Shown: piece by piece, positions 3,017 through 58,800 of the stretch
Layout of the letters: the number at the start of each line of letters is the position of its first letter
How positions within the stretch are numbered: the stretch's first letter is position 1
From: an uncultured Bacteroidales bacterium
GTDB taxonomy: Bacteria; Bacteroidota; Bacteroidia; Bacteroidales; Bacteroidaceae
Reading direction: 5' to 3'
DNA: 64,000 nt
Assembly: GCA_902801475.1 (NCBI GenBank)
Contig: CADCIO010000009.1
Span: 1 to 64,000, forward strand
The notes under the pieces: model-generated
Database searches by the model: none
Told to the model about the DNA's origin: nothing
Seen by the model: the letters and a program-made list of their open reading frames with translations, nothing else
Position numbers and translations under genes: made by a program

Positions 3017-3226
3017 TTTTAGTTTTTATATCTTTTCTATCAAAACTATTATAGAAAGAAAAATAAAATAAAAAGTTTTTCGGCAAAACTTGGCAAAAAC
3101 TAAAAATTGTTTTGCAATCTTCTTACATTCAATTAATTGCAAATATTTTAGCAAGCTTCAAAAACTCAACAAAAAGTAAAACTGAGCATTACAGGTAAGA
3201 AAGCACTCCAAAGAACCATTTTCCCA
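3017..3226. other. AT-rich spacer
   Basis: This is very A+T-rich intergenic sequence between the terminator and the operator array. It has short inverted repeats (TTTCTAT ... ATAGAAA around 3036-3058) and the duplicated word GGCAAAA/CTTGGCAAAA. I see no coding potential and no convincing RNA gene. Confidence 0.6.
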
Positions 3227-3230
3227 AAAT

Positions 3231-3346
3231 CGTTTACTCCACTAACCGAAATTTTCCCAAAATCGGTTACTACAATAACCGAAAATTGCAAAAAATCGGT
3301 TATTACGATAACCTTTTTATCTTTTATTTGGTTATTAAACTAAGTT
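3231..3346 (+). repeat. Phased array of 18-bp inverted repeats (operator-like)
   Basis: Three 18-bp units begin at 3231, 3264 and 3297, exactly 33 bp apart. They are CGTTTACTCCACTAACCG, CGGTTACTACAATAACCG and CGGTTATTACGATAACCT. The central unit is an inverted repeat with arms CGGTTA and TAACCG. A degenerate fourth unit begins at 3329, 32 bp further, and overlaps the -33 box of the ATPase promoter. The A-rich flanks (CCAAAATCG) are also conserved between units. Even spacing close to three helical turns places the units on roughly one face of the DNA, as for cooperative binding of a dimeric regulator. No regulator gene is adjacent. Confidence 0.8.
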
Positions 3347-3358
3347 CTTGTATCTTTG
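3327..3358 (+). promoter_or_regulatory. Promoter of the DUF4143 ATPase gene
   Basis: TTTG (3327-3330), 20 nt, then TATCTTTG (3351-3358) is an excellent match to the Bacteroidota -33/-7 promoter. Transcription should start near 3365, only about 17 nt before the ATG at 3382. The fourth, degenerate unit of the inverted-repeat array lies within it, so a bound protein would compete with RNA polymerase. Confidence 0.8.
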
Positions 3359-3381
3359 CGCCCAAAATATCAGATTGAAAT

Positions 3382-4578
3382 ATGGAGACTCTTTTCAAAA
3401 AACATCGTGTATTGATCTCGCAGACGAGTACGGAGACTGTCCGCGAGATGATGAAGTCCGTGAAATGGGAGAAGCAACTCGTGTCCATACGAGGGTCGCG
3501 TGGTGTTGGAAAGACGACACTCGTGCGGCAATACATCAAGCAGAAATATGGCGTGAATGCCGGTGAGGCTCTCTATTGCGTGATGGACAGCATGTATTTC
3601 ACCACCCACACCCTGTTGGAAGTGGCGGAGCGGTTCCACTTGATGGGCGGCAAGCATCTATTTCTGGATGAAGTGCATAAATACCCTACGTGGAGCAAGG
3701 AACTGAAGGAAATCATCGACCTTTGGCCAGACATGAAGGTTACCTTCACGGGCTCATCGCTCCTCCAAATTCTGAATGCGGATGCCGACCTCTCGCGCAG
3801 GGTGCTCAGCCACGACATGGCAGGACTGTCATTCCGCGAATACATCCGCTTTTATAAAAACATCGAACTGCCTGTGCACACGTTGGAGGAGATATTGAAG
3901 GATGCGGATGCCATCTGTGAGGAGGTCTGCCAAGTGTGTCATCCCCAGACACTTTTTGAGGAATACTTGCGTGTGGGTTACTATCCTTTCTACGATGGCA
4001 ACGAACAGGAGTACTATAGCAGGATTGAGAATGTGGTCAGTTTCATCATCGACCAGGAAATAACGCAGTTCTGTGGCGTTGATCCTGCCTATACCCGTAA
4101 ACTCAAGGCTATGATGCTGTTTTTGGCTAACAATCTGCCATACGATGTGAATATAGCCAAACTCTCGTCGTATTTGGAACTCAACAAGACGACCGTGCTG
4201 AGTTATCTCTCCTATATGCAGAGGGCTGAGCTATTGCATCTGCTGTATTCCGACAACAAATCGGTGACCAAGATGCAAAAACCTGATAAGATTCACATCC
4301 ACAACCCTAATATGCTCTGTGCATTGAGTTCTAATCTGAATGTCGGCACATTACGTGAGTGTTTTGTAGTCAACCAACTTTCAGTAGGTCACACTGTGGA
4401 GTATGGAAGGACACAAGGTGACTTCTTGATTGATGGCAAGATTACCATTGAAGTGGGTGGGCAGGACAAGTCCTTCGACCAGATAGCGGACATTCCTAAT
4501 TCATACGTACTTGCTGATTCCTTGGAATTTCCAGTAGGCAAGAAACTCCCCCTCTGGATAGTTGGTCTGCTGTACTAA
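3382..4578 (+). CDS. AAA-family ATPase with DUF4143 domain
   Basis: This 398-aa cytoplasmic protein belongs to the AAA_14/DUF4143 group, which is abundant in Bacteroidales and of unsettled function. Walker A is GSRGVGKTT at residues 38-46. Walker B is LFLDE at 93-97, and TGSS further on is a sensor-1-like segment. The C-terminal third has the DUF4143 layout: a helical linker with a winged-helix-like segment (LNKTTVLSYLSYMQRAELL), then a degenerate nuclease-like core (GDFLIDGKITIEVGG). The start at 3382 fits the promoter. The gene is monocistronic, and the preceding operator array suggests tight control. Members of this family often lie in genomic islands. Confidence 0.85.
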   Translation: METLFKKHRVLISQTSTETVREMMKSVKWEKQLVSIRGSRGVGKTTLVRQYIKQKYGVNAGEALYCVMDSMYFTTHTLLEVAERFHLMGGKHLFLDEVHKYPTWSKELKEIIDLWPDMKVTFTGSSLLQILNADADLSRRVLSHDMAGLSFREYIRFYKNIELPVHTLEEILKDADAICEEVCQVCHPQTLFEEYLRVGYYPFYDGNEQEYYSRIENVVSFIIDQEITQFCGVDPAYTRKLKAMMLFLANNLPYDVNIAKLSSYLELNKTTVLSYLSYMQRAELLHLLYSDNKSVTKMQKPDKIHIHNPNMLCALSSNLNVGTLRECFVVNQLSVGHTVEYGRTQGDFLIDGKITIEVGGQDKSFDQIADIPNSYVLADSLEFPVGKKLPLWIVGLLY

Positions 4579-4651
4579 ACTAACAAAGAATGCGCGCTCT
4601 TTTTTCTTCTAAAAAATCTTCATAATTCCTTGAAAATAAATCAGTTTTCTC

Positions 4652-4682
4652 TTGCATATGTCAGAAAAAAGTCGTAACTTTG
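4652..4682 (+). promoter_or_regulatory. Promoter of the HU-like gene
   Basis: TTG (4652-4654), a 20-nt spacer and TAACTTTG (4675-4682) match the Bacteroidota promoter. The start should fall near 4690, leaving a leader of about 150 nt before the ATG at 4838. The leader is G-rich and contains two similar words, GGGACGCGTTCT and GGGACGGGTTCT. Confidence 0.7.
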
Positions 4683-7989: not shown

Positions 7990-10900
7990 TCACTTAATCA
8001 CGACCTTTTTACCATTGTATATATAGATACCCTTGTCAGGCTTGCCTGGCAGTTCGCGACCGTTGAGGTCGTAGTAGCGATGGGTGCCGTCCTCGTCGAT
8101 GGTCTCGATGCTGTCGATGTCGGTCGTGTCGTCATCCAGCATCATGCTGATGCGGGTGCTGGCGTGGCGGGCACTTGGCAGCAGGAAGGCACGGAAAGGC
8201 AAGATGCTGGCTTTGCTGTCGTCAGTGCTCACAGGATGCCAGTCGCCGTCGCTCTGCAGGATGTAGGCGCCCATGTCGGCAGCCTCTTCATTGCTGATGG
8301 CGTCGAAGGTGCCGCGCAACGTGTAGCCCACAGCGTCAACCTGACGTCCGTAGGTGTCGCCGCCGCTGGCAGGGATGGTCTGGGCGATGTCGCTGTTCAG
8401 TGTCGTTGACATCTTGCGGAAGCGCTTGTTGCCCACCACTTTCAGCAGATAGGGTTGCATAGGCTCCAGCTCGCCCTTCACCTCCGTGAACACGAGGCTG
8501 TTGCCGTCGCGCTCGCTCAGCTTGTAGGCACGTGAATACTGCGGCACATTCATCTTATAAGGTACGCAGAGCGTGTAAGGGATGGCTGAGGCAGCCAGCG
8601 TGCGTGAGTTCTCAATCTTCTCGGCCTCGAACTCGTAAGGTACGACATAGGAGAGTGAGTCTGCCAGTCGGTAGGTCTTCGTGCGCAGGATGTCGCCGCT
8701 GGCCACCACCACGTTCGTCTCGTCGGTGTTGCCATAGGTGGCTGGCACGTAGGCCAGTGTCTGCTGGGTGTTGATGCCGTACTTGGCAAAGCCACCGTCG
8801 CGCAGGGTGCTGATGACGTCGGTAGAGTCGCACCGCAGGAAGTCAACCGAGCGCAGGTGTCGGTTAGCGTCGAAGAGACCTTCCTCCATCTCGCAGAGCG
8901 ACAAAGGCATGGATATGTGTTCCAGTTCCTTGAGCGGTGCCAGGGTGGCTTTATCCATGTACACTATGCGGGTAAAGCTCAACGGAGCGAGATTGCGAAC
9001 ACCTGTATTGAAGTCAAACCATCCCCTTACCGAAGTGATTTCGCTCAGTTCATCCTGAGTGGCAGCACCGTGAGAGGCGAAGGCGCAGAACGAGTCATCG
9101 TCGTTGAATACGCCCGTAGAGACGTTGTTGGTGCGCTGCCATGAGGAGCCGGTGAAGGCTTCGTCGAGCAGATAGTTGCGGTATTGGGTTGGGCGCACGT
9201 AGAAGGCGTCGAACGTCGGGTTGTAGTTGTTGCACAGCAAACGCCAGATGGGGTGATCCGAACTGATGGCTATCTTCTTTTTAGCGAGGATATACATGCG
9301 GCTGAGCATGGCATCGTCGTCGAGTGCACTCCAGTTGAAGTCCTCCATGTCGTCGCCGATGACCAGCGTCTCAAGGCTTTCGCACTCCTGCAGGGCACGA
9401 CGGCCAACCTCCTTACAAGTCTTCGGCAGGATGAGTGTCTTCAGGCTGTGAGCGCGCAGGAAAGAGTGCTGTGGCAGCAAGTTGTCTTTGACAGCATAGC
9501 CCATCGGAGTAAGAGAACCGTCCCAACGCCTGTATTCTCCCCATACCGCACTGCTTTCGTCGGTCTTCTTAATCTGGGCATCGTAGAGGTCGAGGTATTC
9601 CAGACGTCCGACATAGTTGCGCGACTGTGTCCAACAGCAGTAGCCAGCCAAGTATTTCATCAGGTCGATGTCAACGCCACCGATAGGACCTACCACCTTC
9701 AGTCTGAAGATGCGGCTGTAGTCGCCACGCACACCTACCAGATATTTAGTGCTTGAACCTACTTCTTCGTGAGTCTTGACTTCCAGACCTAATGCCTTGC
9801 CCAGCGTGTTCGGTTCCTTCACGACGACAGTCAGGATGTCTCTGTTGGCATTGTCATCGTCTGCATTGATGTGGTCGGCATACTGTGCCCACTTGGTGCG
9901 GTAGAGCTTGGCATAGCGGCGCGGCACGAAGATGCGGAAGTTGGATGGCAGATCGCGGAAGGCGTCTTCAGCCAGTTCAGCGGGCTGGATGCCGAAAACA
10001 CGGATGGTGTCGAGTTTTCCACAATCGGCGAAGGCGCTGGTTCCGATGTATTCAACAGAAGCAGGCAGGGTGATGCGTCGCAGGTCACCAGACCCCTGGA
10101 AGGTGTTTTCGAGGCGCTTCACGTTCTGGAAGTTGTAGAAATCATCGAAGTCCTGCAAGCTACTGCGGTTAAAGATGCCTTCCACGCTCTCACGCATCAG
10201 GTACACCGAGGGGAAGAACTCGTTCTGGAGAGCCAGCAGTTTCATGGCCCTGTCATCGATGAACGGAGCGTCAACAGCACTTGCCTGAGAGATGATACCA
10301 TAGTCGTTCATGTAGTCGCCAATCTGCGAGGGAAGTGTATATACTTGCTGCAATGAGACGCCCCATGGGTCGTTGGAACTCGTCTTGGCGTATTGGTCAG
10401 TCAGGAACACCAGTTCCTCCAGCGGGTAGTCGAACAGTCCATCCGTGTATTGCCAGCTATCATATTCCTTCACGGCTCCCGTTATGGCTACGCGTTTCAA
10501 GCCACTGCAGCCAGCGAAGACGCGTGCATCAATTTTCGTTAAGCTCTTCGGCAGGACAACCGTTTCCAGCGCTGTGCAACCCATGAAGAGGTAAGTGGGC
10601 AGTTCATTGTCATTCTTGATGTTATAGCGCGTACCGACCATGGCGTGTTCGTCGTTGTAGTAGTGATAGCCGTCGTCGGTCTCCTTGATGTCGGCATTGT
10701 AGAGGTTCAGGTAGCGCAGGCATCCGTCGGTGGGCTTGCCGCCACCAGTGTAGGCATCGCTGCCTGCCAAGTATCGGATGACGGCCAAATCGACGTTGCC
10801 TAACGGACCGCTGACGGTCAGCGAGTCGTACTTGGCGTAGTTGCCGTGTACGTAGCGTGGCTCGTCGCCGAAGAAGAGTCCTGAGTAGCTCATCTCTACG

Positions 10901-13900
10901 AAGAGACCCAGTTTCTCAGCCAGTTCATTGGGCTTGCTGACGGTCACCACCTTATTGACATGATAGTCGGCATCGCTCACGATGTAGTCCTTGTACTCAG
11001 ACCATTCCTTAAGATAAGTCTTGAGGCTCTGTGCAGGCACGTAGATCTTCATGCCCTCGTTTCTGGGGAACACGTCGTCGCACAGATAGAATGGCTTGGG
11101 GTTGCGCACACGGATGGTCTTAAGACTGGTGCAACCGCTGAAGGCATTGTCGTCGATCAGGGTCAGCATAGATGGCAGTTCAATCTCCTGCAAGGCTGAG
11201 CAGTCCATAAAAGCACGTTCCATGATCATGTTAAGGCTGGGTGGCAGAACGACATTTGTCATCTTCGTCAGTCCCTTAAACCATTCTGGATAGATGGTGA
11301 TCAATTTGACGCCCTCGAAGTGCTGAAGGTCGGCCAGCGAGAGGATATCATCCTTCTGAGCGGTGAATCGGCCATTGAGCAATGGGAAGTCGGCACCTTT
11401 TCTGCGCGACAGGTCGATATAGTCGTCCCATGTGGCAGGATCGTAGCCCGTATGTGCCCTGTCGTAGTAAGGCTGGTCTTCCAGAGCAGCCTTGAAACCC
11501 TTGTCAGAAGGCTGGATGATGCAAGGCATGAAGCGATCCTTGTACTTTACCCATGAGGTGTCAGCTTCGAACCATGCCACCTGTTGCGGCATCATCCTGA
11601 TTTTGGCATTTGTTCCTTCCAAAACTCCCCTGCCGAGCTTCACCTGCTGTGGCTTGATGGGAACAATGTGGTTGTCGCCGTCGGTGACGAGGTAGAGCAT
11701 GTCGAGGTACTCCAGTCCTGAATAGGAGAAACATGAGTCTTCCAGTGTCACGTCCAGACCCGTGTAGCTGTCGCCGAAGGCACCCGTACCCTTCAGGTCG
11801 GTGAAGTTCACGACTTTCAGGTTCTTGTTGCCATAGAAGGCTTTGCGTGCCACAGCATCAAGCTGGAAGTTGTTGTACACGCCGATGTCGTTACACAGCT
11901 TCAGTCCGCCCTGATGCTCTTCAAGGAACTTGTTGTCGGCTCCCGTCACGATGGTGTGCTCAATCTTGTGACCGTTCACCTTGTGCACTTTCTGCGTGGT
12001 GCCGTTCTCGTAGGCATAGGCGTAGTTGCCGCCATACTCCTGATACTGAGTCTCAGGTTTTGCAGGCTCATAGACGAACCACTGTTTCATGGGTGCCCAC
12101 GACTCGCTGTCGAGGAAGTCCTGCTTGCGTGTTGGGTCTATGATGATGCGTATCTTCGTGGAATCGACATTGGCAAACACGTGGTCTCCAGCCAAGATAA
12201 AGCTCTCAGGACCAAGTGCCTGTGTGCCGTTCTTCTTGGTCTGCACACGCAGGTCGATGGTGGTCAGGTTGGTACAGCCAACGAATGCCGAGTCGGGAAT
12301 AGTGAGCAGCATGGGGATAGCCTCATCGCTCTCTATGGTGTTCTCATAGAACTTGATGGTCTTCAGATTCTTCTTGTTGTGGAAAGCATCCTTGGCCCAT
12401 GTCATCGTACGGGCATTGTTGTTGCGACCCTGTCCCTTGCCTGTTCCGGCATAGATGGTCACCTCTTCCTGGTCGGGCACACTCTTGATGTAAGTGTGAT
12501 AGCACAGGTTCTTGGTAGGTGTGGTGATGATGTAGCCACCGCCAACCATGCCCACCTGATGGATGTTAGACAGGATGTTCTCGCGCATACCCTTGCGCAG
12601 GGCTTCGCCGTCGTAGGTGCCGCTGCCACCCCAGCATGAGGTAGCGATGATGCCTGCCGTACTGACGGTTCCAGCCAGCGCCTGACCACCAATGTAGTAG
12701 GCACTTTGCTTCAGGACTGAAGGCAGTTGAGGGGCTACGATCTTTTCTGCTGCCGTGTATGCTGCGTCCGCAATCTGCTTGATGCACAGATTAATAACAG
12801 GATTCTTGCCGACGAAAGATTGAGTTTCATTCACTGCAGTCATTGCCAAGAATGTGTGCATCGATTCGGAACTGACAAATTCTCCTTGTTCGGTGATGAG
12901 AGGAAAACTGACGTCCATTATTTTCTTCTCCAATCCTACTTGCACCTTCTTAGCATAAGTTGAGTACATAAGGCCATAAACACCTTTGACGGGGGAAATT
13001 CCCTCTGCCTCGTTACCCATCAAGTTCGGGAGATATTTTTTGACTGGAGAATCCAATAGATCGTCCCACAAATTCTGTGTGCGACTCTGAATATCAGCTT
13101 CACATAGAGTCTTTAGCTTGGTCATGTCTGTCATGTACGTCTCAAAAGGTTCCTTGAGCGCCTTGACAGCCTTGAAGGCATCCTCCACTTCCATAGCAAA
13201 GAGTGCCACTTCAAGGGCGATACGCGGAATTGTCCACCACGACACATCCTGGCTGACGGTCTGCGAGGTCTGCAGGATGCCGCCTGGCGAGGTCATGTAG
13301 CCGTAGGTCAAGCCGTCTAACTGGAAATCATTCATCTGCTGCTTCTCGGGCACGAAGTCCTCGGGCTGGATGAAATCGGCATAAATCATCCAGTTGGGGT
13401 CGTCGAGGAACTCCTGATAACGGTCGGGAGACACGATGATCTTGAAGTCTTCTGGCAGACTGGCTTTAATGGCGTCATTCAGCTCTGAGGTCTTTAAGGT
13501 CTTCATGTCAACATCGGAGGGCAGACCGAAGATGTTGTCGCCCGGAATAACGTCCTGAGGGCCGAGCGTCTCCCAGTTGTCGCTGCCGTCCTGCACGTAA
13601 TAGTACATACGCAACTCCTTGAGGTTGGTGCAGCCCTTGAGCGCACCGTTGCGGATAACTATCTTCAGGTCGTTGTAGGAGTTCTCCGAACGGCCGTTGG
13701 TCTGCCAGAACTCGATGTTCTTCACATCCTTGCTCTGTCCGAGACTCTCGAGGGCGATGGTCTTGTAGTTATAGTAGGAACCAGGGTCGTTGTAGATGCG
13801 CATGGTGCCGTTGCTCAGGCTGCCGGCATCGACACCCACCACCTTGGTGTACCAGATGTTCTTGTCGGATGTGGAGAGCAGGCTGCTGGCATTGAACTGC

Positions 13901-15684
13901 TGGTAGTCTGCGTTCCAGTATTTCAGGGTCTCCATCAGCTGGGCGTGACCCTCGGCGTTGTTCTTCAGCGACTCGCCCTTGGTGTTGCGCATCTCGCTGT
14001 AGCGGGCACCGTTCACGTCCATATCGACATTGGTGTGGTTATAGATGAAGATGCGGTTGTTCACACCCTTCCACGCCTTGTTGCTCAGGTAATTCTGATA
14101 CTCTGAGGCATCAACGGTGAAGTTGGCCTGCGGGGAATTGTAGAAGACGTTGCTGCTCACCTCAGTCACCTGCACGTCCTTGAGCGCCTCCCAGTGGTTG
14201 TCGCCCCTGGTGGTGTACTGCATCATCTTAATTTCCGTCAAGTTGGAGCAATAGGCAAAGGCTTGGTCGCCAATCACGAAGTCGAATGGGAACGAGGCAT
14301 TTTTGGTGCTGGCATCAGTATCCTTGAAGTAGAGTGTCTTCAGCTCTGTGCAGCCCTGGAAGGCATGGGGAGCGATGCAGCCCACGAGCGTATGGTCGCG
14401 CCCTACACCCGTCAGGTCGTTGTGTATCTGTGCTCCGTCTGAGGGAATGTCACCAGGCACCCAGCCTACAACGGCGGTCACCCATACTTTGTTGCCGTCG
14501 GCATCCCACTTGAAGAGGTCGTCATTTTTGTCGAACTGATAGCCCTTCTGCTGGCACACCTCGTTGCTGAGGTAGAGGTGATAGTCGCGGCGGCTCAGGT
14601 AGCGGTACTTCGTGCCGTCCATCACGCGCTCATCCGATGGCTTCACCATGTAATCGAGGGGACTGAACATCGGCTTGCGGCTCAGGTCGCTGATCACATG
14701 AGTGCCATTGCGCTGCCACGGGTCTTTGATGTAGCACGAGCCGTTGGTCTCCCAGTGGTTGAAGTTGGCATCGTCAGAAATCGACAGCTGGATAACGGCT
14801 CCGTTCTGCCAGTATTTCTCGCCGCCGAAGTCGATGGTCGGCTCGCTGATGATCTCGGCCTCGCAGCCATCAGACACCAGCACCTCGCGGAACACGGCAA
14901 CACCCTGCTCACCACCCATCAGCTGGGTGTAGTAGCACTCCTCGAACGTACACGTCACACCGGCAACCGTACGGGCAAAGGTGGCGCAATCGTCATAGTA
15001 GGGGGTCTCCTTCGGGTCCACCATACAGTGCTTGAAGTCAATGGGCAGGTTGGTGTAGCCCACCAGACCACTACTGCGGTTGGACCAGCCAGAGAAACCA
15101 CCAATAAACGAACTGTTCTTGATGACAGGACTTGCCGTGCAGGTGCTCTCCACCACGGCCACAAGTCCGCCAAAGGTGGCGTCACTGTCGAGATTGCTGT
15201 CGGCAAACAGTCTGCTGCTGACATGGCAGTCGTCGATGGTGGTCGTACGGGAGCCGTCTATCAGCGAGGCAATGCCTGCGGCATACTTGTGGCGGCTGAA
15301 GATGCTGCCCTTTACCTTGAGGTGACGGATGGTGGCACCGTCGAGTCTGATGAACGGGGCGCAGTAGTCATCGGCGTATTCGAAACGGTCGGGCTTGGCG
15401 CCGCCACGATCGTAGGTCAGCGTGTACATGCCACCACTGAAAGTGCCGCTGAAGGGTTTGTCACTTGCGCCAACGCTGATGCCCTCGGCATCAATGTCGG
15501 CCGTCATTTCGAAATACTTGCCGCTGTAGCTGTTGCCGCCGTTCACGTCGTCGGCCAGTTGCTTCCAGTCGGCACTGCTTTTGATCTTGTAGGGATCGGC
15601 AGACGTTCCGTCGCCATCCCACGCCCATGCCACCTGCGCGATTGCACACAGCAAGGCAAGCATCAAAAATGCTTTCTGTTTCAT
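7990..15684 (-). CDS. Giant BspA-like leucine-rich-repeat surface protein (2564 aa)
   Basis: The signal peptide is MKQKAFLMLALLCAIAQVAWA. Residues ~20-300 are a beta-helix-like N-module related to that of the 1827-aa protein. Most of the rest carries irregular BspA-type (LRR_5) repeats such as AFQGCTELKTLYF, AFSGCTSLKTIRV and AFADCGKLDTIRV. Residues ~800-1030 are a helical, repeat-free insert. Two large tandem units begin near residues 1580 and 1945 (VNKVVTVSKPNELAEKLGL and RDILTVVVKEPNTLGKALGL). The C-terminus YYDLNGRELPGKPDKGIYIYNGKKVVIK (last ~28 residues, quoted in part) resembles a type IX sorting tail. BspA relatives bind host proteins and other bacteria; the ligand here is unknown. It is first in the unit and has its own promoter. 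Confidence 0.85.
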   Translation of the reverse strand: MKQKAFLMLALLCAIAQVAWAWDGDGTSADPYKIKSSADWKQLADDVNGGNSYSGKYFEMTADIDAEGISVGASDKPFSGTFSGGMYTLTYDRGGAKPDRFEYADDYCAPFIRLDGATIRHLKVKGSIFSRHKYAAGIASLIDGSRTTTIDDCHVSSRLFADSNLDSDATFGGLVAVVESTCTASPVIKNSSFIGGFSGWSNRSSGLVGYTNLPIDFKHCMVDPKETPYYDDCATFARTVAGVTCTFEECYYTQLMGGEQGVAVFREVLVSDGCEAEIISEPTIDFGGEKYWQNGAVIQLSISDDANFNHWETNGSCYIKDPWQRNGTHVISDLSRKPMFSPLDYMVKPSDERVMDGTKYRYLSRRDYHLYLSNEVCQQKGYQFDKNDDLFKWDADGNKVWVTAVVGWVPGDIPSDGAQIHNDLTGVGRDHTLVGCIAPHAFQGCTELKTLYFKDTDASTKNASFPFDFVIGDQAFAYCSNLTEIKMMQYTTRGDNHWEALKDVQVTEVSSNVFYNSPQANFTVDASEYQNYLSNKAWKGVNNRIFIYNHTNVDMDVNGARYSEMRNTKGESLKNNAEGHAQLMETLKYWNADYQQFNASSLLSTSDKNIWYTKVVGVDAGSLSNGTMRIYNDPGSYYNYKTIALESLGQSKDVKNIEFWQTNGRSENSYNDLKIVIRNGALKGCTNLKELRMYYYVQDGSDNWETLGPQDVIPGDNIFGLPSDVDMKTLKTSELNDAIKASLPEDFKIIVSPDRYQEFLDDPNWMIYADFIQPEDFVPEKQQMNDFQLDGLTYGYMTSPGGILQTSQTVSQDVSWWTIPRIALEVALFAMEVEDAFKAVKALKEPFETYMTDMTKLKTLCEADIQSRTQNLWDDLLDSPVKKYLPNLMGNEAEGISPVKGVYGLMYSTYAKKVQVGLEKKIMDVSFPLITEQGEFVSSESMHTFLAMTAVNETQSFVGKNPVINLCIKQIADAAYTAAEKIVAPQLPSVLKQSAYYIGGQALAGTVSTAGIIATSCWGGSGTYDGEALRKGMRENILSNIHQVGMVGGGYIITTPTKNLCYHTYIKSVPDQEEVTIYAGTGKGQGRNNNARTMTWAKDAFHNKKNLKTIKFYENTIESDEAIPMLLTIPDSAFVGCTNLTTIDLRVQTKKNGTQALGPESFILAGDHVFANVDSTKIRIIIDPTRKQDFLDSESWAPMKQWFVYEPAKPETQYQEYGGNYAYAYENGTTQKVHKVNGHKIEHTIVTGADNKFLEEHQGGLKLCNDIGVYNNFQLDAVARKAFYGNKNLKVVNFTDLKGTGAFGDSYTGLDVTLEDSCFSYSGLEYLDMLYLVTDGDNHIVPIKPQQVKLGRGVLEGTNAKIRMMPQQVAWFEADTSWVKYKDRFMPCIIQPSDKGFKAALEDQPYYDRAHTGYDPATWDDYIDLSRRKGADFPLLNGRFTAQKDDILSLADLQHFEGVKLITIYPEWFKGLTKMTNVVLPPSLNMIMERAFMDCSALQEIELPSMLTLIDDNAFSGCTSLKTIRVRNPKPFYLCDDVFPRNEGMKIYVPAQSLKTYLKEWSEYKDYIVSDADYHVNKVVTVSKPNELAEKLGLFVEMSYSGLFFGDEPRYVHGNYAKYDSLTVSGPLGNVDLAVIRYLAGSDAYTGGGKPTDGCLRYLNLYNADIKETDDGYHYYNDEHAMVGTRYNIKNDNELPTYLFMGCTALETVVLPKSLTKIDARVFAGCSGLKRVAITGAVKEYDSWQYTDGLFDYPLEELVFLTDQYAKTSSNDPWGVSLQQVYTLPSQIGDYMNDYGIISQASAVDAPFIDDRAMKLLALQNEFFPSVYLMRESVEGIFNRSSLQDFDDFYNFQNVKRLENTFQGSGDLRRITLPASVEYIGTSAFADCGKLDTIRVFGIQPAELAEDAFRDLPSNFRIFVPRRYAKLYRTKWAQYADHINADDDNANRDILTVVVKEPNTLGKALGLEVKTHEEVGSSTKYLVGVRGDYSRIFRLKVVGPIGGVDIDLMKYLAGYCCWTQSRNYVGRLEYLDLYDAQIKKTDESSAVWGEYRRWDGSLTPMGYAVKDNLLPQHSFLRAHSLKTLILPKTCKEVGRRALQECESLETLVIGDDMEDFNWSALDDDAMLSRMYILAKKKIAISSDHPIWRLLCNNYNPTFDAFYVRPTQYRNYLLDEAFTGSSWQRTNNVSTGVFNDDDSFCAFASHGAATQDELSEITSVRGWFDFNTGVRNLAPLSFTRIVYMDKATLAPLKELEHISMPLSLCEMEEGLFDANRHLRSVDFLRCDSTDVISTLRDGGFAKYGINTQQTLAYVPATYGNTDETNVVVASGDILRTKTYRLADSLSYVVPYEFEAEKIENSRTLAASAIPYTLCVPYKMNVPQYSRAYKLSERDGNSLVFTEVKGELEPMQPYLLKVVGNKRFRKMSTTLNSDIAQTIPASGGDTYGRQVDAVGYTLRGTFDAISNEEAADMGAYILQSDGDWHPVSTDDSKASILPFRAFLLPSARHASTRISMMLDDDTTDIDSIETIDEDGTHRYYDLNGRELPGKPDKGIYIYNGKKVVIK

Positions 15685-55865: not shown

Positions 55866-58800
55866 ATGCAGCACTTCAATAAATACGGAATCGCAGCATT
55901 CATGTTCTTCCTTGGAATCGCACTTCCAGCCGTTGCACAAGAGGAGGTAACAGAGGAGGTAACAGAGGTTGCTGCACCTATCAAAAAGGTTAAGCCAGCG
56001 AAGACATACCCAACCATTGACGTGAAGGGTAAGGTGGTGGATGCTGTTACAGGCGAGCCACTTGCCGGTGTTCGACTCCAGGCTTTCAACAACAAGTATT
56101 ATACAGCCATGACGGATGAGAATGGTGAATACACTATTCAAGTTCCCCAATTCGTCACGGCACTCACTGTTCGACTCGAAGGCTACAACCTGACCAATGT
56201 GTCTATCAATGGTCGTACAACCGATGTAAACGTACGTTTGCAGTCGGATATTCTGAAAGATGATTATACGACCAATGCATCGGCACGCAAGAGTGTGACT
56301 GAGATCGACTTTACGAACACGCCAGCGCTGACCATCGACCAAGAGATACAGACTCGCTTGGGAGCTGATATCAGAAGCATCCAGCGTTCTGCTAATCCTG
56401 GTGAAGGTATGGCGATGTTCATCAATGGTCTGAACTCGTTGAACTCAAACGCTATGCCACTCGTCGTATTGGATGGTGTGGTGTATGACATGTTGTATGA
56501 CACAAGGATGCTGCACAATGGTTACTTCAATAACCTGTTGCAGGCCATCAACGTGGACGACATCGAGTCCGTGAATGTTCTGAAGAATGGAACTGCCATC
56601 TATGGTGCTAAGGCTGCCAATGGCGTCATCGAAATCAAGACCAAGCGTTGTCACTCAATGGCAACTCGTATCGATGTGAACATCAATACAGGTTTTGAAG
56701 TTGCTCCTAAGACGTATGAATTGATGAATGCAGGACAGTATCGTTCTTATGCATCAAACCTCTTGCAGACCACTAACACTACGCTGACGGAGTTCAAGTT
56801 CTTGCACTCTGAACCAGACTATTATTATTATAATGTGTATCATAATAATACTGACTGGAACAAGGAAGTCCACAGAACGGCTTGGACACAGAACTACGGC
56901 ATTTCTATCCAAGGTGGTGATGATATCGCACAGTATAACCTCTCTGTAGGCTATGGCGATGCTAAGTCAACTCTGAAGAAAAATGATATGCAGCGTTTCA
57001 ATGTACGTTTCAATACCGACATCGTGCTGAACAAGTGGTTCTATACCAAGTTCGATGCCAGCTACACGAACGTGACACGTGACTTGCGTAGCGATGGTTG
57101 GGCTAACAACCAGCACTTGCAGGCATTGGCTTCACCCAGTGCATTGGCTAACATCAAGGCTCCTTTCTTGAGCCCTTACGACTTTGCTACAGACAGAAAT
57201 GTGACCAACTTCATTGCAGATGCTGATGATTATCTGAATGAGGTTTGGGGTAATATCAATACATCGAGAGCTCAGCTTGCTAACCCAGTTGCAATCCTTG
57301 GAAATGGTGAGGCAAAGAACAAGAACCACTCTGATTGTACGATGATTAATGTCTCCATCGCCCCAACATGGGAGCCTACAAATGACTTCTCTTTGACAGA
57401 GAAATTCAGCTACACCATCCAGAGTATGGATGAGGCTTACTTCACCCCAATCATTGGTATGCCTACTTATACACTACCTGGTAACATGGACGCAACAGAG
57501 AACTCCAAGTATTCCATGTTCTCGAAGCACAATGCCGTGTTCTCTGATACGCGTGCTGATTGGAAGATCCTTCCTAATGGTGCTCATCGTGTAGAGGTGT
57601 TCGGTGGTGTCCGCTTCATGAATGACACATACAGAGCTTCTTATCTGTTGGCAGATGGAACGGGTAGTGATAAGACTCCTAACACGGGTAGCAGAAACCG
57701 TAAGATTACGGGTTCTGACACGAACTGGAGAACGCTGGCTTACTATGCAAATGCTGATTACAACTACATGGAGAAGTATTATGTATCTGGTCAGTTGTCT
57801 ATGGAAACATCTTCTCGTTTCGGTAAGAATGCAGGTATGAAGATGTTTGGTGTAGGTTGGGGTGTATTCCCATCTGTCCAGGGTGCTTGGGTCATTTCCA
57901 ATGAAGATTGGTTCCCAACGGGACACGGAGTGGATATGTTGAAGATCAATGGAGGTTTCGAGTCTGTGGGTAACGACGCGATGGATAACTCTGCTACACT
58001 GACCTATATGTCATCTGAAATGGTAGGTGGTAGAAGAATCTCTTCTCTTGGTTTGGCAAACATCGGTAGTTCTTCTCTCCAGTGGGAGACTACGAACCGC
58101 TTCAATGTGGGTCTGGAAGGTAACTTCTTCAACAACCGCTTGAACTTGAGAGCTAACTACTTCTGGTCTAAGACCAACAACTTGATTACTCTGGGTACTT
58201 TGGCTTATGTGGCAGGTCTTCCAGATTACTTCACCAACGATGGTGCGTTGAAGAATAATGGATTTGATGCTGCTTTCAATGCCAAGGTGCTTGATGGAAG
58301 AGATTTCAAGATTGAGTTGGGCGCAAGCATTGGTCATTATAAGAACAAGTTGACTCGTCTGCCAAAGGGTGTGAACTCTTTCGAGACAAATCTCTATGGT
58401 GGTACTGTCCTCTCAGAGGTAGGCAAGAGCGCTGGTGTCTTCTACGGTTATAAGACAGATGGTGTCTATAAGGATACGCAAGCTGCGAATGATGATGGCA
58501 AGTTCATTCGTGACGATGCAGGTAATCCTGTTTATTTCGGTGCAGGTGACATAAAGTTCGTGGATAAGGATGGCAATGGTGAAATCAATGAGAACGATCG
58601 CTTCGTGATTGGTGACCCCAATCCAGACATCTATGGTAACATCAGCCTGAAACTTCACTATACGAAGAACTGGACATTGGCTGCTAACTTCAACTATTCT
58701 GTGGGCAATGACATTTATAACTATGAACGTGCCGTATTGGAAGGCGGTTCTAACTTCGTCAACCAAACTACAGCTGTCGTTCGTAGATGGACCACGGAGG

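Follow-up and report, generated by a model that had tools for sequence, protein, structure and literature searches.

Dyad arrays of fixed pitch at the promoters of single-gene ATPase cassettes: likely autoregulatory operators

The window, that is the whole stretch of 64,000 nucleotides analysed here (contig CADCIO010000009.1 of an uncultured Bacteroidales bacterium, assembly GCA_902801475.1), carries close to its left end a gene for an ATPase which is preceded by four dyad units and a promoter, arranged as follows.

3226..4590, + strand: cassette (array and gene), given as the outer limits of DNA homology with about 20 orthologues, the flanks being otherwise unrelated
3231..3248, no strand: dyad unit 1, CGTTTACTCCACTAACCG, with a single arm mismatch
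3264..3281, no strand: dyad unit 2, CGGTTACTACAATAACCG, with perfect arms
3297..3314, no strand: dyad unit 3, CGGTTATTACGATAACCT, with a single arm imperfection
3327..3330, + strand: -33 box TTTG of the Bacteroides-type promoter consensus
3329..3346, no strand: dyad unit 4, TGGTTATTAAACTAAGTT, degenerate and weaker, 32 bp past unit 3 and within the -33/-7 spacer
3351..3358, + strand: -7 box TATCTTTG, 20 bp downstream of the -33 box
3382..4578, + strand: ATPase gene, 398 aa, with an AAA_14 P-loop domain, a predicted winged helix and a C-terminal DUF4143-like domain; matches PADLOC PDC-S01

The centres of the units lie at 3239.5, 3272.5, 3305.5 and 3337.5, giving spacings of 33, 33 and then 32, the fourth unit thus being one base short. 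This last unit sits between the -33 and -7 boxes, its left edge overlapping the TTTG, and the two boxes follow the consensus reported for Bacteroidetes promoters, TTTG / TAnnTTTG (PMC7366714). The window array is real: a direct repeat as good was found in none of 2000 dinucleotide shuffles of the 200-bp region upstream of the gene, and the exact pattern GGTTA-N6-TAACC occurs at only three places in the 3.0-Mb genome, two of which are in the array. The third, at 56520, was weighed up as a further site but dropped, because it lies inside a susC-like coding region, and is taken as chance. When the pattern was searched as a pair (two units, a 17-bp gap and no more than three mismatches), the array was the only place in its own genome at which it was found, so copies of the motif are not spread over that genome. 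The first-pass annotation had described 18-bp units at 3231, 3264 and 3297, each 33 bp apart, and a decayed fourth at 3329 overlapping the -33 box; both claims held, the spacing of the fourth being 32. Its statement that no regulator gene is adjacent held as well, the neighbours of the ATPase gene encoding DUF6371/CHC2 zinc-finger (primase-like) and HU-HIG proteins.

Two observations on the surroundings may be recorded here. Upstream of the cassette, at 423-2934, D5-like/DUF5906 and DUF6371/CHC2 zinc-finger (primase-like) proteins are encoded, and these suggest the replication module of an integrated element. Further downstream, at 7990-15684 on the - strand, lies a gene for a 2564-aa secreted, repeat-rich protein which by eye has the look of BspA-type leucine-rich repeats.

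The gene product had been called a DUF4143 ATPase, a label which is only partly upheld. AAA_14 (PF13173) is matched at 88.4 bits (E 5e-25), well above the Pfam gathering cut-off of 27, whereas DUF4143 (PF13635) reaches 25.8 bits and falls short of its cut-off of 28.1; no protein in the same genome matches DUF4143 at E<=1e-10. The protein is therefore DUF4143-like and not a scored member of that family. It does match the PADLOC PDC-S01 profile models (E 2.9e-29), as do all of its aligned relatives (58/58). The AlphaFold model is confident overall (mean pLDDT 93.5) and predicts a winged helix at about residues 235-290 with a recognition helix at 269-281. Residues 11-317, the ATPase and winged-helix part, are structurally closest to the archaeal AAA+ ATPases SSO1545 (2fna) and PABY2304 (2qen), with Z 16.3 over 260 residues and an rmsd of 4.1-4.2 A, yet sequence identity to these two is just 14-15%. 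Weaker structural matches (Z 12-14) were to switch ATPases of the STAND type including CED-4, resistosomes and Avs. A sequence search of solved structures returned no relative, and comparison with PHROGs gave only weak P-loop matches. VIA-align, whose match list is dominated by the ATPase domain, returned no family covering the C-terminal part. In that part a check for PD-(D/E)XK catalytic residues found D347 and E357 to be invariant; the position of the ExK lysine is taken by G359 (EVGGxxK), and four residues on there is an invariant lysine, K363, in 58/58 relatives. A nuclease fold was considered for this domain and remains unconfirmed, as the model is there of moderate confidence and the several nucleases among the structural matches include none below E 0.1. 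Nuclease activity is left open because D347, E357 and K363 are kept but a glycine replaces the ExK lysine.

The array proved to be a property of the family rather than of the window locus. For each gene, the 200 bp preceding the start codon were searched for the best 18-bp direct repeat with a period of 22-60, and this repeat was set against 60 dinucleotide shuffles. Among the first 91 related genes 37 beat all shuffles, 35 of the 37 at a period of 32-34, whereas the region 500-700 bp upstream of the same ATPase genes gave a significant repeat in just 1/86, with a period of 56. With the set extended to 145 related genes, 66 beat all shuffles, 61 of them at a period of 32-33 and one at 34; if significance is ignored, the best period was 32-33 in 99/145, against a chance expectation of ~5% (two of 39 possible periods). 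A second set drawn from two other collections gave 61/80 loci at 32-33; this amounts to a partial replication, since some species are common to both sets. It takes in records labelled Fibrobacter, Lentisphaeria and Flavobacteriia in addition to Bacteroidales, and in records labelled Treponemataceae and Geobacter within it the array was not significant. In ordinary genes some significant repeat was found in 15/162, a single one of which had a period of 32-34. The family-wide pitch is thus shown directly. About a third of the related loci have no clear array by the shuffle test, and that nearly every gene of this ATPase family has its own array, at a fixed pitch of 32-33 bp and over its promoter, is the probable generalisation.

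Whilst the pitch hardly varies, being 32 in some lineages and 33 in others, the units themselves vary widely in sequence, with GGTTA..TAACC, TGCACT..AGTGCA, CCCTCATTGAGGG, TTTCTTT..AAAGAAA, GTGTTTT..AAAACAC and others all being found. Within a unit the arms match at 5.13 of 6 positions, compared with 2.40 (sd 0.14) when arms are paired across loci, showing that the dyad symmetry is locus-specific. Units of the GGTTA or GCTTA type, with their spacing, were kept upstream of all examined orthologues of 68-91% identity, and close orthologues in different families and phyla have units in common. Paralogues within a single genome, on the other hand, carry different units, as is seen directly, for instance, in three genomes (G574, loci L170, L193, L199 and L204; G620, loci L171, L195 and L206; G021, loci L009, L038 and L061). 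In 18 genomes with the GGTTA type, paired units were found at ATPase genes only, barring one match in a coding region; this exception is weak (three mismatches) and was counted twice, one genome having been reached by two handles. As a minor point, a period of 33 goes mostly with dyads of even length (48 even, 11 odd), whereas loci with a period of 32 are split (15 even, 18 odd).

The arrays are also fixed in relation to the promoter. Measured against the -7 box TAnnTTTG, the unit centres keep a common phase (Rayleigh R 0.63, n=83, p about 7e-15): modulo the period they fall ~14.5 bp downstream of the third base of that box, which puts one unit between the -33 and -7 boxes and the following one at about the transcription start. 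The phase-lock is a measured result; that this is where a repressor would sit is a likely interpretation, repression itself being inferred. At a few loci (L009, L017 and L195) all units are placed between the promoter and the start codon, an arrangement which fits repression as well; it is also possible that these units act in RNA.

Which protein reads the array was approached by comparing the similarity of motifs with the similarity of proteins, region by region and corrected for the rest of the protein. In the first scan the sole region to stand out was around residues 221-280, with a partial rho of 0.20 at residues 231-260 against a maximum of 0.14 in 300 permutations. With 97 proteins the peak was again found at 226-285 (partial rho 0.19), where matched columns, 200 random sets of similar conservation, gave a mean of 0.02 (sd 0.05, max 0.15). 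The signal at 226-285 persists among pairs of <45% identity. For pairs of <40% identity it gives 0.18 and is no longer unique: the highest value among matched columns is 0.22, and the neighbouring region 286-345 is as good, windows starting at 286 reaching 0.22. When positions are ranked singly, residues 268, 269 and 274 come out near the top; all three belong to the beginning of the modelled recognition helix. The co-variation with the predicted winged-helix region is shown, and no other part of the protein foretells the unit sequence consistently by its similarity; however, the effect is modest in size and permutation does not fully remove the effect of shared ancestry. It was proposed on first reading that the dyad symmetry argues for protein binding, by either a distant factor or the ATPase itself. 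The former inference is supported in the absence of binding data and, as to the latter, the evidence now leans to the ATPase, because paralogues in the same genome differ in motif and the motif co-varies with the winged-helix region. We consider it likely, by inference alone, that the ATPase is the binder. A winged helix in AAA+ and STAND-like proteins often regulates the ATPase rather than binding DNA.

Array and gene together form the unit of homology. DNA similarity to about twenty orthologues sets in at 3226-3330, within the array or slightly ahead of it, and runs out around the stop codon (4550-4590), a few weaker matches beginning within the ATPase gene, and these limits enclose one gene. 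None of the compared orthologues, including those of 90% protein identity, was found next to the genes that flank the cassette in the window. Of 203 loci, 24 (12%) lie between complex direct repeats of 22-150 bp, compared with 4/340 control genes (1%; odds ratio 11, p 9e-8), low-complexity repeats having been left out of this final count; one of the four duplication-flanked controls proved to be an ATPase too. The upstream copy usually stops immediately ahead of the array, and no more than about 120 bp separate the stop codon from the beginning of the downstream copy. Among the copies are several gene ends, for instance the C-terminus of a topA-like gene (L016) and the beginning of a glycosyltransferase (L049). 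The topA-like gene end gives a single match in most sister species and two matches in G041, but the right flank is too diverged for an empty site to be called; at the two loci searched no complete empty site was recovered, the intergenic flanks differing between species. No flanking duplication was seen at the window locus itself. Neither was a shared 3' terminal sequence seen at close orthologues, in the absence of a dedicated scan for terminal inverted repeats. With duplications of 22-150 bp, the classical criteria for an insertion sequence or transposon (terminal inverted repeats and a duplication of fixed length) are not met. Close relatives are few in phage and plasmid collections (26 plasmid records and 2 phage records), and 4 were found on viral contigs. 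Neither this cassette of array and gene nor the family-wide rule had been noticed in the first-pass annotation.

An ordinary-looking control gene (L134:5120-6947) has a 93-bp direct duplication on its flanks, like the ATPase cassettes. Downstream of the ATPase gene, on its 3' side, the motif forms a further array at L244 (about 4599-4656) and L246 (about 4213-4280), these two representing one shared insertion, and also at L271 and L175; a scar, an element end or a second operator are all conceivable.

The best reading of these results, and a likely one, is of a mobile cassette of one ATPase gene, equipped with an insulated autoregulatory operator of its own; binding, repression, cooperativity, benefit and the direction of regulation are all inferred, there being no binding or expression data. 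In this model the array would be the operator of the gene behind it, and the ATPase would bind it through its own winged helix, each dyad taking up one dimer or else two subunits of an oligomer. Units at this pitch would lie about three helical turns apart, on the same face of the DNA. Binding would most likely repress the ATPase's own transcription, because units are found either within the -33/-7 spacer or on both sides of the -7 box, and the weaker outer units may add cooperativity. The specificity of the units would have diversified together with the winged helix, and several such genes may share a genome without cross-regulation because each ATPase lineage has its own unit sequence. Operator and gene would travel jointly, which would suit a gene that sets its own level of expression in each new host.

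The alternative that survives best, unlikely as it is, holds that the array is chiefly an end for recombination or transposition at which the ATPase/nuclease moves the cassette, the overlap with the promoter being secondary. In its favour, array and gene are together the homology unit, long direct duplications are enriched at the loci, and a few loci have the second, 3' array. However, the arrays are phase-locked to the promoter and are normally absent 3' of the gene, no pair of terminal inverted repeats was shown (again without a dedicated scan), and the duplications range from 22 to 150 bp or more, unlike the fixed-length duplications of transposases. A vertically kept paralogue, described below, has a promoter site too.

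Two further alternatives we judge very unlikely. In the first, the array keeps the ATPase in a DNA-bound resting state from which a trigger such as infection releases or activates it, regulation of the promoter being only a part of its role. The family is a candidate defence gene (PDC-S01; PMC12988326), its fold resembles the STAND-type ATPases, which are switch proteins, and multi-site arrays exceed the needs of simple repression; against this, there are no data on a trigger and the arrays lie exactly over promoters, as plain operators do. In the second, the ATPase gene is under the control of some other regulator of the host, global or distant, to which the array serves as binding site. Regulators encoded elsewhere act on many bacterial operators, and there are no expression data to exclude one here. 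However, ATPases of the same genome differ in their units while orthologues across families and phyla agree, those genomes have the paired motif at no other place apart from the one weak coding exception, and the motif tracks the ATPase's own winged helix, so that a host factor would need to move and diversify with each cassette. Lastly, the repeats could have arisen in AT-rich DNA by chance or through mutational expansion. In favour of this it can be said that the upstream regions are AT-rich and that 15/162 ordinary genes have some significant repeat, but it is all but ruled out by there being just 1/162 at 32-34 bp, by arms that remain complementary while their sequences change, and by an equal pitch across unrelated motifs.

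Beyond the preferred reading of an autoregulated cassette, a bolder one may be put forward, which we hold to be less likely than not: that the solitary AAA ATPases of this large family are self-recognising mobile genes in which the winged-helix key and the array co-diversify into many insulated specificities at a pitch of 32-33 bp, the array perhaps also holding the resting protein or aiding insertion.

Autogenous operators on mobile nuclease systems are already known, in the form of C-boxes and the omega/PaaR repressors (PMC3874152). The control of type II restriction-modification by C proteins (PMC3874152) is alike in that a mobile, nuclease-linked gene is self-controlled via dyads at its promoter, in that specificity groups insulate one system from another, and in being useful on entering a new host. 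However, C proteins are separate, small helix-turn-helix regulators, whereas the ATPase cassette has no adjacent regulator gene and the ATPase is the likely binder; unlike C-box systems, the ATPase arrays keep a pitch of 32-33 bp. The omega/PaaR repressors of toxin-antitoxin operons bind cooperatively to repeats at their own promoters, with an affinity that depends on the number and orientation of the repeats (PMC3874152), and cooperativity of this kind is inferred for the ATPase. These are ribbon-helix-helix proteins of three-gene operons, in contrast to the single gene found here, whose product joins a winged helix to an AAA ATPase. Insertion with long target duplications of variable length is known for restriction-modification genes (Nobusato et al. 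2000, cited in PMC1643837 and PMC3031569), which resemble the ATPase cassettes in that the sequence next to them is duplicated directly on both sides; here such duplications are seen at solitary ATPase genes, with no complete empty site recovered.

The same protein family has been described among the phage-defence candidates as PDC-S01 (PADLOC; PMC12988326), in which an ATPase is joined to a PD-(D/E)XK-like domain. Neither the literature searched nor the relevant sections of PMC12988326 were found to mention operators, arrays at promoters or comparable mobility for PDC-S01. More generally, no description of the array was found in the open-access literature searched, in which DUF4143 is scarcely named; subscription journals were largely outside this search. 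What is undescribed in that literature is a family-wide array of fixed pitch with a private sequence for each gene and an ATPase as its likely reader. PDC-S01 is reported to rank fourth in frequency among the (candidate) defence systems of prokaryotes (PMC12988326), and in a rumen survey (PMC13356809) no individual locus was more frequent; the anti-phage activity of most PDCs is pending validation (PMC12988326). With its function unproven, a self-matched operator offers a first handle, as it predicts the binding target of each ATPase, the condition under which the gene is off, and the pairs without cross-talk. Should the pairing of key and array be true, dozens of natural orthogonal regulator-operator pairs would be available for Bacteroidales and DNA specificity would be readable from protein sequence.

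Promoter sites were also seen in two related subfamilies. A paralogue subfamily (MESFYRTHxYLVEH) is kept vertically at one per genome (G000:C19:27027-28205, L005, and relatives L078-L094) and has a single shared dyad-like site, TTGCTATCTCnACTTTGCAA, in 13/16 sampled genomes, starting at a fixed distance about 35-37 bp before the -7 box. In a sample of genes retrieved with the DUF4143 profile (L095-L124), 16/30 carry a palindrome of their own, about 37 bp long at most and centred 11-31 bp before the start codon, compared with 4/121 controls. It is possible that promoter palindromes are a wider habit of these ATPases.
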